From Halonotius aquaticus (lineage in GTDB: Archaea; Halobacteriota; Halobacteria; Halobacteriales; Haloferacaceae), in the NCBI RefSeq assembly GCF_003605575.1, contig NZ_QKNY01000018.1, positions 496,001-560,000 of the forward strand: a stretch of DNA of 64,000 bases. The letters run 5' to 3'. This document shows, piece after piece, positions 5,950-62,796 of the stretch. The notes under the pieces were generated by a model that was not told where the DNA came from, ran no database searches, and saw nothing but the letters and a program-made list of their open reading frames with translations. Both the position numbers and the translations under genes were made by a program. Each line of letters opens with the position of its first letter. Position 1 is the stretch's first letter.

Positions 5950-6609
5950 ATGTCACCGTATCAGATCGGCGTTGACGAAGCCGGTAAAGGGCCGGTCTTG
6001 GGCCCGATGGTCGCTGCCGCAGTTCGCGTTGATGAGACCGACCTCCCCGGCGGGATCGACGACTCGAAGCGACTCACCGCCGCAAAACGCGAGTCGATAG
6101 CGACCCAGCTCCGAGAGTCGCCGGCGGTCGCCGTCAGCCTCGGCGTCATCACCACCGACGAGATCGACGACCCCGAAACGGATATGAACAGCCTGACGGT
6201 GGCTGCACAGGTGCGAGCACTCAGCGACGTTGCAGCCGATAGTGACCACGCGCTCGTCGACGCCGGCGACGTGTCGGAATCACGGTTCGCGCGTCGTGTT
6301 GTCGACGGTGTCGCCGATAGCGGCGTTGGGATCGATGTAACAGCCGAGCACGGTGCCGACGAAGCCAGTCGGCTGGTGGGCGCTGCCAGCATCGTCGCCA
6401 AAGTTGAACGCGACAGCCGGATCAACGCCCGCAACGAGGAGTACGACGGCGACATCGGCAGCGGCTACCCGAGCGATCCGACCACCCGCGCGTTTCTCGC
6501 CGACTACGTCGACCGCCACGGTGAGCTGCCGGCCTGTGCGCGTGCGTCGTGGGCGACCTGCGAGGACGTGTTGGCCGCCGCCGAGCAGTCCGACCTGGGG
6601 GAGTTTTAG
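5950..6609 (+). CDS. rnhB: Ribonuclease HII
   Basis: This 219-residue protein cleaves the RNA strand of RNA-DNA hybrids and removes ribonucleotides from DNA. The metal-binding carboxylates are visible: DEAGKGP (Asp9, Glu10), VDAGD (Asp104) and the Asp in SIVAKVERD. Length is normal for archaeal RNase HII. It follows pus10 with a six-base gap. Its stop codon overlaps tail-to-tail with the leftward small membrane gene. Confidence 0.95.
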   Translation: MSPYQIGVDEAGKGPVLGPMVAAAVRVDETDLPGGIDDSKRLTAAKRESIATQLRESPAVAVSLGVITTDEIDDPETDMNSLTVAAQVRALSDVAADSDHALVDAGDVSESRFARRVVDGVADSGVGIDVTAEHGADEASRLVGAASIVAKVERDSRINARNEEYDGDIGSGYPSDPTTRAFLADYVDRHGELPACARASWATCEDVLAAAEQSDLGEF

Positions 6610-6887
6610 CGAAACGGCGGCAGCCGCCAGCCGTAGGCGATCAACAACAGGACACCGACAGCACCGACACCAAACGCTGCCGGTGGTGCGTCGATAGCGA
6701 TCAGGATCCCGACAACGGTTGCGATGCCGATGCCACCTATCACAAATCCGCTGCCGAACTGCGAGATCGCTCGCAGCACGCCACCAAGGCCAGTAGCATC
6801 CTGCTGTTGGAGCTCTTCACGAACCACCCGTCTGACCGCGGCTTCGGTCTCGAGATCAAGCGCTGTGTCGTCGTCAGTGGAGGGCAT
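6606..6887 (-). CDS. Small two-helix membrane protein
   Basis: This is a 93-residue protein of unknown function. The first half is acidic and probably helical (ETEAAVRRVVREELQQQ), followed by two hydrophobic segments at about 48-67 and 71-86, ending in a short basic tail. It begins 38 bases after secD and is probably the last gene of the secF-secD transcript. ATG at 6887 is preferred to the upstream in-frame start at 6911. I do not recognise a family. Confidence 0.72.
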   Translation of the reverse strand: MPSTDDDTALDLETEAAVRRVVREELQQQDATGLGGVLRAISQFGSGFVIGGIGIATVVGILIAIDAPPAAFGVGAVGVLLLIAYGWRLPPFR

Positions 6888-6925
6888 GAGCGGGGCTTTG
6901 ACAGCGAACAAAAAGAGCGTAGGGG

Positions 6926-8500
6926 TCAGCGTTCCGTCAGGAGATTCCGCAGGATGTCGCCGTAGGCCGGCCGGGTGACGAAGACACCGACCAGCACGCC
7001 GAGGATCGTGAAGATGGCAAAGCCTTCCAGATCACCCAACGAGAGCACCGCCAGCGGCGACATGGCGATGATCGTGGTGGCGGCGGCGACGCCAATCACC
7101 CAGAAGGCCTTCTTGAACCGCGAGCTGAAGACACGGCGGCTGGAGACATCGCCCTCGGCCATCACCCCATCGGCGATGATCACGAGGTCGTCGACCCCGG
7201 TGCCAAGGACGGCGATAAAGCTCGCAATGACCGACAGATCCAGCGGGTATTGCAGATAGGCGGCAAACCCGAGCAGGATCAACACCTCGGAGAACGCCGT
7301 CAAGATCATCGGTAACGCGACCTGGGGTTCGCGGTAGCGGGCGAAGACGACGCCGGAGACCGTGAGAATAGCGAGAATCCCGATGATCAGCGAGTCGGTG
7401 CGGAAGTTCTCACCCTGGGTCGGTGAGATGAAGGAGGTGGTTCCCTGATCGATGGCGTACTCCGCGGGGATATCACCCGCACGGAGATTGATGGCGATCT
7501 CTTGGGCCTCCTCGAAGGAGGTCGTCGTCAACACGAAGCTTGGACTTCGGGCCCAGTCGCCGGTTCGCATGCTGTTTGCGAGGTCGCCGTTCATCCCGAA
7601 GGAGTTGATGACCTCGCCGTCGACGACGAGTTGGAGACACGGATCAGTGTTCTGTGGGTTCTCCTCGTAGCGACAGGTCGAACCACCCTGTTGGGCGACG
7701 CCGGTCTCAACAACGGTCGACTGGAATGTTTCAGCGATGCCGTTCTCCTGCCGGATCGAGACCGGAACGCGTGGGTTCGGGCTGCGGTCGTCGGGTTGGC
7801 GAGCGTTGCTGATCGAGGCGAAGTCATTCTGCGTCAACACGGCGCGTTCGGTGGTGTACTCGCCGTCGCCGTTGTTATCATGGTAGATGTCGATCCGAAC
7901 GTTCCCGCGTTGCTCGATCAGGTCGATCACATCGCTTCGATCCTGTCCCGGCACCTCGACCAGGATAAAGAAGCCGGTGCCGTCGGTGATCTGCTGGACG
8001 CTCGCTCCCGAGAGCCCGGCCTGATTGACCTTCCCTTCGATGACGTTGATCGCCTCATCGCGGGTCTCTTGCGTGAGGCCATCGCGGATCGTCTCGTAGC
8101 TGTAGCCCGTCGCGTCGAGGGCGTCGGCGAACTGTGATTCCGAGATGTCGGGGTTGACGACCTCAACGGTCGGCCCGTTGATCGTCCCGCGTCTGACTGT
8201 CACATCAGTCGTATCGCTGTCAGGGAGTTCGGCGGCGACGGCGGCCGCGACATTGGTGGTTGATTCGTCGCCGATGTCGACGGCTTCGGCGGTCATCCCG
8301 ATCAACGGCGCGCGGATGCGGGTGCCGCCGGCGAGATCAAGGCCGTACTGCAGGTTTGTGAGCCGATCGCCGGTGGTCGCGTTCTCACCGCCGACGTTTG
8401 TCTGTGGGGCCATCGTCGGCGAAAACACCACAAACAGCGAGATGAGCAGGATGACCGCCAGCAGCGTCAGCCGCCAGTTGGATTTGAGCTTCTCGATCAT
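6926..8500 (-). CDS. secD: Protein-export membrane protein SecD
   Basis: This 524-residue subunit of the SecDF complex assists late steps of Sec-dependent export across the cytoplasmic membrane. It has an N-terminal membrane helix (about 10-28), a large external domain containing the conserved YGLDLAGGTRI, and a C-terminal bundle of five helices (about 370-515) with GTGVDDLVIIADG. The bundle resembles RND transporters. Its ATG overlaps the secF stop by four bases, so both are coupled. The order secF then secD is the usual haloarchaeal one. Confidence 0.95.
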   Translation of the reverse strand: MIEKLKSNWRLTLLAVILLISLFVVFSPTMAPQTNVGGENATTGDRLTNLQYGLDLAGGTRIRAPLIGMTAEAVDIGDESTTNVAAAVAAELPDSDTTDVTVRRGTINGPTVEVVNPDISESQFADALDATGYSYETIRDGLTQETRDEAINVIEGKVNQAGLSGASVQQITDGTGFFILVEVPGQDRSDVIDLIEQRGNVRIDIYHDNNGDGEYTTERAVLTQNDFASISNARQPDDRSPNPRVPVSIRQENGIAETFQSTVVETGVAQQGGSTCRYEENPQNTDPCLQLVVDGEVINSFGMNGDLANSMRTGDWARSPSFVLTTTSFEEAQEIAINLRAGDIPAEYAIDQGTTSFISPTQGENFRTDSLIIGILAILTVSGVVFARYREPQVALPMILTAFSEVLILLGFAAYLQYPLDLSVIASFIAVLGTGVDDLVIIADGVMAEGDVSSRRVFSSRFKKAFWVIGVAAATTIIAMSPLAVLSLGDLEGFAIFTILGVLVGVFVTRPAYGDILRNLLTER

Positions 8501-37139: not shown

Positions 37140-37727
37140 TTAGAGGATGTACGCGCTGTTGTTCTCGATCTGGCGAGGGGCCTGTAGCTGCTTGTAGGTG
37201 CTTCCACCCGCCGGGGCTTGTGAGATGAACGTGATCGATTCTGACTCGTTGAGCGGTGTGATACCACTAATATCCGTCAACGAGAACTCAACGACCATCA
37301 GGTCGTTTTGATCGGATAATGTATTGGCGCCGTCCTCAAGGCCTTGTTTTGGATAAAACTCGATGCCATCGCTAGCGGTGCCGGCACTCGTATTTTCACC
37401 GTTGACCACAGTCGCGTCGCCCTCGGTTTCAATCGTATACGAGACCTTGCTGAGGTTGATCGGATCAGAGCCGGACGCGAGTCGAACGCTCGCATTGAGC
37501 GTGTCGATCGTTTTGTTTGAGTTTGTCTCAAGCCCGATCACTTTACCGACCTGAACGACATCGCTAACTTCAGCCGTTGTTTCTTCACCGGTTGCCTGTG
37601 CTTGTGATTGCAGGAGGCCTGCAGTGTTGATCAACACGCCCGCGGCGATCGCCGCGACCAGCACCATCGCAATGAACACGATGAGCGTGCCGATCCCCAC
37701 CTGACCTCGGTTCTCTGGTTCGAACAT
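37140..37727 (-). CDS. Archaellin (archaeal flagellin)
   Basis: This 195-residue filament protein starts with a class III signal MFEPENRG, expected to be cut by the prepilin peptidase before [20 protein letters not shown], which forms the N-terminal assembly helix. The mature domain has several Asn-X-Ser/Thr sequons (NKT, NAS, NLS, NTS, NES), as expected for N-glycosylated archaellins. No other archaellum or chemotaxis gene is near. The mature domain is short but within range for haloarchaea. Confidence 0.9.
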
Positions 37728-60644: not shown

Positions 60645-61439
60645 ATGGCGCGATCTGTGCTGCTGACTGGGGCCGGCGGTCGTGTCGGGCAGGCCATCCT
60701 CCGGCATATCGGCGCCGACTACGACTGGCGGCTGTTGGATCGTGAGCCGCTTCCGGCGGCGAAACTCCCCGATGGGGTGGACAACAGCGACGTCTATGTC
60801 GCCGACGTGACCAACCGGGAGGCGGTGCGCAACGCCGCCGAGGGCTGTGAGGTCATCATCCACCTCGCCGGCGACCCGCGACCGAACGCCCCGTGGGAAA
60901 GCGTCCTCCACAACAACATCGACGGCACACAGTCGGTACTCCAGGCCGCCGTCGATCTCGGCGTCGAAAAGGTCGCCTTCGCCTCCTCGAATCACGCGGT
61001 CGGCAACTACGAAACCGAAGCAAAGAAACCCGATCTCTACCGCACCCACGACGATTTCACGCTTGACGGAACCGAACTCCAGCGACCCAGCAACCTCTAT
61101 GGCGTCTCAAAGGCTGCCGGCGAAACCCTGGGACAGTACTACCACGACGAACACGATCTTTCGGTGGTCTGTGTTCGGATCGGCAACCTCACCGAGGGCC
61201 ATCCGCCGCGCAACTACGAGCGCGGCCAGGCGATGTGGCTGTCCTACCGAGATTGTGCCCACCTCTTCGAACGCAGTATCATCGCCGACTACGGCTTCGA
61301 GATCGTGTACGGCATCTCCGATAACGACCGCAAATACTATTCTATCGAGAACACCCGACGCGTGCTCGACTATGAGCCGACAGACAACTCCGCGGAGTAC
61401 CACCTCGACGGCACGCCGAAAGAAGAATCCGAAGCCTAA
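60645..61439 (+). CDS. azf: NAD-dependent glucose-6-phosphate dehydrogenase (Azf type)
   Basis: This 264-residue extended short-chain dehydrogenase has the NAD motif TGAGGRVG (8-15), active-site Tyr152 and Lys156 in LYGVSKAAGE, and GNLTEGHPPRNYERGQAMWLS-type substrate loops. It closely resembles the archaeal zwischenferment of Haloferax volcanii, which oxidises glucose-6-phosphate with NAD in the oxidative pentose phosphate pathway. The shared C-terminal GISDNDRKYYSIE is strong support. Uronate dehydrogenases are the nearest alternative family. Confidence 0.88.
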   Translation: MARSVLLTGAGGRVGQAILRHIGADYDWRLLDREPLPAAKLPDGVDNSDVYVADVTNREAVRNAAEGCEVIIHLAGDPRPNAPWESVLHNNIDGTQSVLQAAVDLGVEKVAFASSNHAVGNYETEAKKPDLYRTHDDFTLDGTELQRPSNLYGVSKAAGETLGQYYHDEHDLSVVCVRIGNLTEGHPPRNYERGQAMWLSYRDCAHLFERSIIADYGFEIVYGISDNDRKYYSIENTRRVLDYEPTDNSAEYHLDGTPKEESEA

Positions 61440-61519
61440 CCTACCACGTCGAGGGCAGACAGGCACAGGCGAACCCGCCACACCGAAGCAGGAGTGATGA
61501 TGTAATCTAAAATCGGTAG

Positions 61520-61531
61520 CCAGCCGGCTGG
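61520..61531. repeat. Perfect 12-bp palindrome CCAGCCGGCTGG
   Basis: CCAGCCGGCTGG reads the same on both strands and lies about 80 bases after the azf stop, at the left edge of the repeat-rich non-coding stretch 61440-62088. It may be an operator or a stem of a transcript end. Confidence 0.45.
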
Positions 61532-61615
61532 AAACCAGCAGTACACCGACTAGCCACGCGAACTGTTCGTTGCCACACCTGTCGCTGGCACGTGCTGTGT
61601 CAGCGTTCGAATAAT

Positions 61616-61635
61616 GGGTAGGGGGGTTAGGGGGG
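61616..61635 (+). other. G-tract with quadruplex potential
   Basis: GGG, GGGGGG and GGGGGG separated by TA and TTA give enough guanines for four stacked runs (a six-G run can supply two). It lies in the gap between azf and atpD, just left of the long inverted repeat. Confidence 0.55.
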
Positions 61636-61655
61636 TCAGCGAATCAAGGCTGAGT

Positions 61656-61687
61656 GGTGCCTCGATTCTCAGTGTTGAACATGGTAC
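61656..61687 (+). repeat. 32-bp inverted repeat, left arm
   Basis: The 32 bases, centred on TTCTCAGTGTTGAACATGGT, match the reverse complement of 61994-62025 at 30 positions. Just inside, CCGTCTG (61688-61694) pairs with CAGACGG (61713-61719) in a separate hairpin. The arms frame about 306 bases with no supported gene. Confidence 0.85.
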
Positions 61688-61970
61688 CCGTCTGCAGTGA
61701 TACCACCATTCACAGACGGTATCTGTACATAATCGGGAGATAGCTAATAAAAATACTGGCCTTAGAATCAACTCTGATAATTCAATCAGCCGATCCGGTC
61801 ATCTCATCGAGGGTGAACGGCGCTTGCGGTTCGACACACGCCCACCTGTCCAAGCAGTCGGTCAGTATCGACACGGAACACCCAGAAGTGACTACTAGGG
61901 CGGTGACTGCCAGCGCAAATCAAAAAGCCCGGAAAGAAATCGGTCAGGTAGGGTGTGCAGGCAAGAGTAG

Positions 61971-62031
61971 CCGTCTGGTGTCAACAGTCAGGCGTACCAT
62001 GTTCAACACTGAGAACCGAGACACCAGACGG
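61971..62031. repeat. Nested 12-bp inverted repeat around the right arm
   Basis: CCGTCTGGTGTC (61971-61982) and GACACCAGACGG (62020-62031) are perfect inverted arms that overlap the 32-bp right arm. A transcript could therefore fold into either of two mutually exclusive stems, long-range or local. The CCGTCTG heptamer recurs in the left hairpin. Confidence 0.8.
61994..62025 (-). repeat. 32-bp inverted repeat, right arm
   Basis: This is the inverted partner of 61656-61687 (30 of 32 identical). Together they could be the ends of a 370-bp miniature element or form a long stem in RNA. No clear target-site duplication is visible outside the arms. Confidence 0.85.
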
Positions 62032-62088
62032 TACCAGATAGTTGTGGGTTGGATGTAATAAAGATATCGGCTGAGGAGGTCGATCGCC

Positions 62089-62796
62089 CTACTCGTCGAC
62101 GGCGACAGCGTCGGCGTCGGCGTCGGCTGCTTCTGCGGCGGCTTCCGCGGCCGCTGCTTCCTCGGCTTCGGCTTCTTCCTTCTTTTCTTTGATTTTCTTC
62201 ATCCGGAAGATCTCCTCGCGCTCCTGTTCTTCGAGCTTCTGTTCGATGTACTCCTGGTTGGTGTAGAGATCCGGGAGGAGTTTGAACTCAAGGGCGTTGA
62301 CGCGGCGTTTTGTCGTTTCGATCTCCGTCAGCATCTTTTTCATCGCCGTTTCGACCTCCGCGGCGAGGATAATCGTCTCCAGCAGTTCCTCGTAGGCGTC
62401 GGCGGCCTCGTCGATACGGGCCGAGGAGCCGAGCAGCCCGTAGCCGCGCTCATCGAGGGATTTCTTCACCTTCGAGGATTCGATCTGTGGAACGACGACC
62501 CCCATGATATTCTTCGATTGGATCGTGATCTCAGGGTGTTCCTTGAGTGCGGCCGCCGCGCCGCGAACCGCCACGTCGCCTTCCATCGCCCGCGCCATGT
62601 TGAGCTTCCGCTGGGCGGTCTCGTAATCCTCGTTGAGGTCGTTGCGTACGTCTTGGGCCTGATCGAGGATATCCATGAACTCCATGATCAGCCCGTCGCG
62701 CTTCTGTTCGAGCGTATCGTGGCCACGCTCGGAGAGCTCGATGCGATCTTCGATCGCCATCAGGTTCTTCCGTGTCGGTTTAACGTCCTCAGCCAT
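62089..62796 (-). CDS. atpD: A-type ATP synthase subunit D
   Basis: This 235-residue central-stalk subunit transmits rotation in the archaeal ATP synthase. The N-terminal ([30 protein letters not shown]) and C-terminal ([16 protein letters not shown]) helices form the expected long antiparallel coiled coil. It ends in a Glu/Lys and then Ala/Glu/Asp-rich tail. No other atp gene is in the window, although subunit D usually closes the main atp cluster. It lies 86 bases downstream of the opsin gene on the same strand. Confidence 0.93.

Follow-up and report, generated by a model that had tools for sequence, protein, structure and literature searches.

A candidate antisense small RNA family of Halonotius predicted to pair with archaellin-type start regions, and its putative sense RNA partner

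Introduction

Trans-acting small RNAs that mask translation starts have been described in archaea, the closest cases in the available text of the respective reports being sRNA162 (PMC3510493) and sRNA154 (PMC5867862) of Methanosarcina mazei. Haloarchaea such as Haloferax have short or absent 5' untranslated regions, which the accessible part of the latter report suspects of holding little information for initiation or decay (PMC5867862). Two RNAs of Haloferax volcanii bear on motility, as excerpts of their reports describe: deletion of sRNA63 raises flagellin transcripts and swarming (PMC3956466), and hvo_1211s, which is cis-antisense to cirA, lowers motility (PMC13286277). The available portion of the same report describes a CsmR box, TATCA-N4-TGATA, that adjoins the TATA box of the H. 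volcanii archaellum genes, and a rise of the CsmR-bound genes upon deletion of csmR (PMC13286277).

Few archaeal small RNAs have a known pairing site. In bacteria, trans-encoded type I toxin-antitoxin loci consist of a small sense RNA and an adjacent antisense small RNA, with long complementarity at the start codon. Sponge or target-mimic RNAs are known in bacteria and plants.

Here we describe a locus of Halonotius aquaticus downstream of atpD. By comparing sequences, we resolve two units there, a putative antisense RNA (A) and a putative sense RNA (S), and establish the strand of A, covariation of its stem, conservation of its antisense segment, the promoter type of each unit and their retention in the genus. 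Like sRNA162 and sRNA154 as the available text portrays them, the putative RNA A is intergenic, has a predicted accessible stretch antisense to a ribosome-binding or start region, and has several proposed targets. It differs from them in that its sequence is unrelated, its loop nearly duplicates, in antisense, the leaders of its candidate targets, and it forms a multicopy family mostly paired with a sense RNA (S). sRNA63 and hvo_1211s are haloarchaeal motility-lowering RNAs to which A may relate in role; the available parts of their reports describe no pairing to archaellin starts. Within the open-licence literature, as far as the text of the listed matches extends, no such family appears among the matches listed for archaellin antisense or small RNAs, flagellin small RNAs and small RNAs from inverted duplications, nor among those listed for archaeal sponge or mimic RNAs and archaeal type I toxin-antitoxin systems. 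No archaeal target-mimic RNA appears among the listed matches either, and an open-licence search for Halonotius together with archaellins found nothing.

Results

The window is the whole 64-kb stretch of H. aquaticus DNA that was analyzed. The gap of interest lies between a plus-strand NAD-dependent epimerase gene and the minus-strand genes atpD and bop (assigned by Pfam), and is therefore downstream of bop-atpD. An initial annotation of this gap had claimed a 32-bp near-perfect inverted repeat with arms 306 bases apart and a perfect 12-bp inverted repeat overlapping its right arm. Both are borne out (Table 1); the arms are 33 nt long and 94% complementary, with a spacing of 306 nt. A claimed CCGTCTG hairpin on the left is present as well (CCGTCTG/CAGACGG at 61688-61694 and 61713-61719), as is a 12-bp palindrome, which is probably incidental. 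A pattern search of the genome with the arm gave seven matches, and a control with the reversed pattern gave none; the further arm copies that the annotation had suggested looking for lie on two other contigs. In four other Halonotius genomes, the corresponding site retains both arms together with the 12-bp stem and a left hairpin. Since copies exist elsewhere and the arms persist at this site rather than eroding freely, we conclude that the repeats exceed chance.

Table 1. Features of the A and S units and of the gap that holds them (positions in the window)
Feature	Position	Strand	Basis or remark
12-bp palindrome CCAGCCGGCTGG	61520..61531	none	Seen in sequence; not conserved in relatives
S RNA (predicted), conserved part	61641..61725	-	5' hairpin, start region with short ORF, 3' hairpin
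S 3' hairpin	61641-61650 with 61659-61668	-	Folding, alignment
S short ORF MFNTENRGTTQP	61644-61682	-	Within start region
Left arm, sense copy of archaellin start region in S	61655..61687	-	Repeat comparison
S 5' hairpin	61688-61719	-	Folding, five-genome alignment
S TATA box	61745..61755	-	Alignment, direct-repeat search
CsmR-like box TATCA-GAGT-TGATT	61766..61779	-	Upstream of S TATA box; 9/10 positions of the PMC13286277 consensus
A RNA stem-loop (predicted)	61971..62031	-	12-bp stem 61971-61982 with 62020-62031; antisense segment in loop
Antisense core of A loop	61997..62020	-	Complementary to archaellin start region; within right arm 61994-62026
A TATA box TTTATTAC (minus strand)	62055..62062	-	24 nt upstream of stem

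The arm is the start region of Halonotius archaellin genes (CATGTTCAACACTGAGAACCGAG, MFNTENRG). Copies were gathered from the H. aquaticus genome and from four other Halonotius genomes: H. pteroides (G001), H. roseus (G003), H. terrestris (G004), and G002. Many copies extend the arm, written as CATGTTCAACACTGAGAACCGAG, into GGTCAGGTGGGGATCGG, which is an archaellin start (PF01917). The five genomes hold 12, 14, 11, 14, and 5 archaellin-family matches, some of them FlaF/FlaG-like or partial. The family of H. aquaticus itself is large and dispersed (12 matches), with one member inside the window at about 37200-37727 on the minus strand, and many of its members (among L114-L119, L078, and L155) have a leader with a GC-rich hairpin.

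Other sense copies form a separate class (T), in which a 12-codon leader ORF overlaps the start of the next gene by ATGA (L011, L062). The T gene at L011:1277-2161 (minus strand) has this archaellin-like leader ORF upstream, and the arrangement recurs in L062. The downstream gene carries an apparent Tat signal; the L011 protein has no Pfam or NCBIfam match. The starts at L054 and L076 are similar to the T copies and are candidate members of the class.

Alignment of the atpD gap from the five genomes delimits an A island consisting of a TATA box, a non-conserved spacer, and a stem-loop, with transcription predicted to start at about 62031-62035. Fifteen A copies were compared, which come from about five loci (six at atpD, four in a YncE-like neighborhood, three in an HTH-repeat neighborhood, and two singles) and are thus not independent. 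On the minus strand 177 of the 179 stem cells are paired, and 160 of the 179 would pair on the plus strand. Read on the minus strand, every one of the 17 wobble cells is G.U and none is A.C. Both sides are changed in 10 cells; the exchanges are A-U for G-C at one pair (7 copies) and C-G for U-A at another (3 copies). None of 500 shuffles reached the observed percentage paired, the number of cells changed on both sides, or the covariation score; two other measures did not discriminate, namely pairs changed on both sides (reached in 251/500) and further pair types (500/500).

Conservation among the A copies is concentrated in the antisense core, with a column identity of 0.95, compared with 0.55 for the rest of the loop and 0.47 for the spacer between TATA box and stem. 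In 14 of the 15 copies a TATA-like box occupies a fixed column, whereas the base frequency is 0.0006 per position; the exception is L057. Four A copies have folding z-scores of -2.2 to -5.9. At the other two H. aquaticus loci, the copies have weak U-tracts, or none, downstream of the stem. The selectively kept antisense core argues for use, and A is, on these comparisons, a well-supported RNA gene.

A sense-strand attenuator at the right arm, in which the 12-bp stem would enclose the ATG on the plus strand, was rejected on two grounds: the stem exchanges that give G.U in 17 minus-strand cells would give A.C if the plus strand were the transcribed RNA, and the TATA box lies on the minus side. 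The initial annotation had suggested a structured RNA at the end of the bop-atpD transcript. Its structured RNA survives in the form of two RNA genes with their own promoters, a status that A and S very probably have, and its placement at the end of that transcript does not. The A stem-loop does follow the atpD stop codon by ~58 bp and shares its strand, as a structured 3' end or terminator would, but the same units are found near unrelated genes, A has its own TATA box, and the loop matches archaellin starts, which leaves a terminator highly improbable.

In the five-genome alignment, the S island runs from a CsmR-like box through the TATA box, 5' hairpin, start region, and 3' hairpin to a C-rich stretch. 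Nine S copies (the atpD sites and G002) fold into two hairpins that flank a largely unpaired start region, and the window copy has a folding z-score of -3.8. The five outer pairs of the 3' hairpin are formed in 93.3% of 45 cells, and one of these pairs covaries; this count covers 9 of the 15 S copies, the six without a 3' hairpin being omitted. The 5' hairpin shifts its register between copies and was kept out of the covariation count. Past the S start region, the window holds a G-rich tract at 61590-61640, GGGTAGGGGGGTTAGGGGGG, which is C-rich in the S RNA and partly kept in relatives. The short ORF of S is hydrophilic, its end is not conserved, and it lacks a start codon in 2 of the 15 copies (L010 and L060). 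A coding reading of the S ORFs was rejected on the last two grounds.

Boxes with at least 8 of 10 positions of the Haloferax volcanii consensus, as given in the available text of PMC13286277, were scored as CsmR-like. Such a box lies upstream of all 15 S copies, all four T copies, and two doubtful S/T copies. It is also found upstream of 12 of 20 tallied archaellins (8 of 13 that match the arm and 4 of 7 others from H. aquaticus), plus the archaellin in the window, and upstream of 1 of the 14 A copies in the tally, which did not include that of L067. At the same threshold, the background is 1.0% in random windows and 15.6% in AT-rich windows. The S promoter appears archaellin-like, with a putative CsmR box. 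The putative boxes at S, T, and many archaellins of Halonotius resemble the CsmR regulon of H. volcanii, to the extent that the available text describes it; unlike that regulon, most A copies have no box. The TATA regions of A and S and the 9-mer CAGACGGTA form direct repeats within the window, spaced 311 and 312 nt apart, and the start regions are inverted. In sequence, A resembles an archaellin promoter and the 5' end of a leader joined to what would be an inverted start region.

Each of the five Halonotius genomes carries the A and S pair downstream of atpD, and the ~200 nt between the two islands are not conserved. In G002, a second A copy lies nearer to atpD. A covariance model built from the 15 A copies matches 5 of 119 family genomes, which are the five Halonotius, and none of the 114 others; this search, run with stricter filters, gave no further full-length match. 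The numbers of A genes are 3 (G000), 4 (G001), 3 (G003), 3 (G002), and 2 (G004). Rfam gave no match to window positions 61300-62250 at E up to 1. Among genomes of other genera, one archaellin-start query per genome found only itself in G013 at E up to 1 and a best second match at E 0.25 in G006, and the third genome, G015, has no archaellin-family match. One exact 23-mer of the A core has no match in viral contigs. A Clostridia-labelled match (L049) was judged to be due to chance, as it has no A-model match and its surroundings are unrelated. Among the genomes searched, A and S are thus found only in Halonotius, where they are, judging from their conservation, selectively kept.

The units are also separable. 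A occurs without S at L055 and L057 of H. pteroides, with no sense copy of up to 6 mismatches in the surrounding 4.5-5 kb, and S occurs without A at L065, L066, and L068 of G002, with no full A match nearby. This separability suggests action in trans and speaks against a single hairpin RNA, or an element with terminal repeats, being the unit. The miniature mobile element proposed in the annotation was indeed not borne out. Several intergenic copies with inverted arms would suit a miniature inverted-repeat transposable element, but the same site is filled in five congeners, the arms enclose DNA that is not conserved, and the arm is an archaellin gene start. Further, conservation does not stop at the arms but reaches two hairpins and two TATA boxes outside them, so that functional-looking stems lie beyond the arm ends; one copy (G002 C32), with A flipped relative to S, has direct instead of inverted arms; and no direct repeat of at least 8 nt, the length to which the search was limited, abuts the outer arm ends at the window site. 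We regard such an element as hardly conceivable.

Near-identical inverted arms and many archaellin paralogues might also point to cassettes for archaellin switching by recombination or gene conversion, that is, to an invertible segment. This seems very improbable to us, as the arms hold just ~7-8 archaellin codons, no archaellin body flanks the window site, and all five genomes agree in the orientation of the atpD site. Functionless, decayed archaellin starts left by duplication would explain why the arm is an archaellin start in genomes with 5 to 14 archaellin-family matches each. They would not explain a covarying stem, nor a core, TATA boxes, and hairpins kept over five genomes in which the neighboring DNA is not, and we consider decay alone improbable.

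Folding predicts an accessible stretch in the A loop, and this stretch is complementary to the start regions of mRNAs encoded elsewhere. For each of the three H. aquaticus A loops, pairing with 3 of 3 S copies, the one T gene, and 4 of 10 archaellins is stronger than with every member of a background of 115 start windows drawn from the 64-kb window. Four archaellins are intermediate, and the H. aquaticus archaellins L114 and L115 are not above background. Pairing of the whole A RNA is predicted at -76.8 kcal/mol for the archaellin leader at C10:318.6k and at -81.8 kcal/mol for S, and the A loop of the window site reaches -65.2 kcal/mol with S. Within the genome, the 23-nt core of A fits S (mean 20.8/23) better than the archaellins (18.2/23).

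At non-complementary core positions, whose cells are not independent, the ratio of G.U to A.C is 72:12 for S, 73:22 for archaellins with the arm pattern, and 20:4 for T; by core column, G.U beats A.C in 13 and loses in 5. We saw no signal of co-adaptation of A with the archaellins of its own genome, the match being no better than to archaellins of other genomes, so complementarity by descent may be the source of the archaellin match. On balance, archaellins are probable targets of A.

The pairing also bears on a different possibility, that A and S together make up an autonomous module built like a trans-encoded type I toxin-antitoxin locus, in which S would be a tiny mRNA and A its blocker, the archaellins being merely the source of the sequence. 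A and S resemble such loci in their adjacency, which holds at most sites, and in their complementarity. Their mutual pairing, by both the loop and the whole-RNA energies given above, is the best in the genome, and the modules are repeated and intergenic. Unlike such loci, S has no hydrophobic toxin (no small hydrophobic protein was found in the 15 S copies, the ORFs of which are hydrophilic), its ORF is short and variable as described above, and A persists without S. We consider a toxin-antitoxin module unlikely.

Discussion

Our preferred reading, to which we assign a probability of about 0.6, is that A is a trans-acting antisense small RNA that blocks translation of archaellin-type leaders and that S is a co-regulated decoy or target. 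A would be a minus-strand transcript driven by its own TATA box immediately past atpD, and its 12-bp stem would display ~24 nt antisense to a start-codon region common to the archaellins, the leader ORF of the predicted secreted protein (T), and the S RNA. Pairing of A with these 5' leaders would block translation initiation or destabilize the message. S would be a second minus-strand RNA, with an archaellin-type promoter and CsmR-like box and no conserved protein. Switched on with the archaellin regulon, it may titrate A as a target-mimic decoy, or may itself be the target of A. The decoy role is put forward tentatively, at somewhat less than even odds. We infer that the RNAs are made, that A represses, and that archaellins are its main targets.

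S is like sponge RNAs in having a copy of the target site and the promoter type of the targets, as befits a putative decoy; it is unlike them in being encoded beside the small RNA that it would bind, and in an archaeon. Because CsmR-bound genes rise when csmR is deleted, S and the archaellins would be derepressed together, with A staying on. More speculatively still, an RNA circuit in Halonotius may set how many or which archaellins are in play, through a constitutive A family and a CsmR-controlled decoy S that absorbs A. If true, such a circuit would amount to an archaeal double-negative threshold switch built on a target-mimic RNA.

A would have arisen by inverted duplication of an archaellin leader, and S from a sense duplicate. 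Plant microRNA genes are born from inverted duplications of their targets, a parallel to the origin proposed for A. The analysis points to RNA control over a large archaellin family, and to an antisense RNA born from its own target. Comparison alone yields a strand, a structure, a pairing segment, and candidate targets, and does so in cultured species; the proposal is directly testable.

Two further observations concern the archaellin genes. At L070 (1980 and 2661) and L064 (2345 and 2784), G002 has tandem near-identical archaellin starts and a doubled A unit adjoining atpD, which are signs of local duplication. Beside archaellin genes in L155 lie a KaiC-type ATPase gene (6527-7270, plus strand) and a gene for a 110-amino-acid helix-turn-helix protein (7280-7612, minus strand); the latter is of CsmR size, and the neighborhood resembles cirA/csmR of Haloferax.
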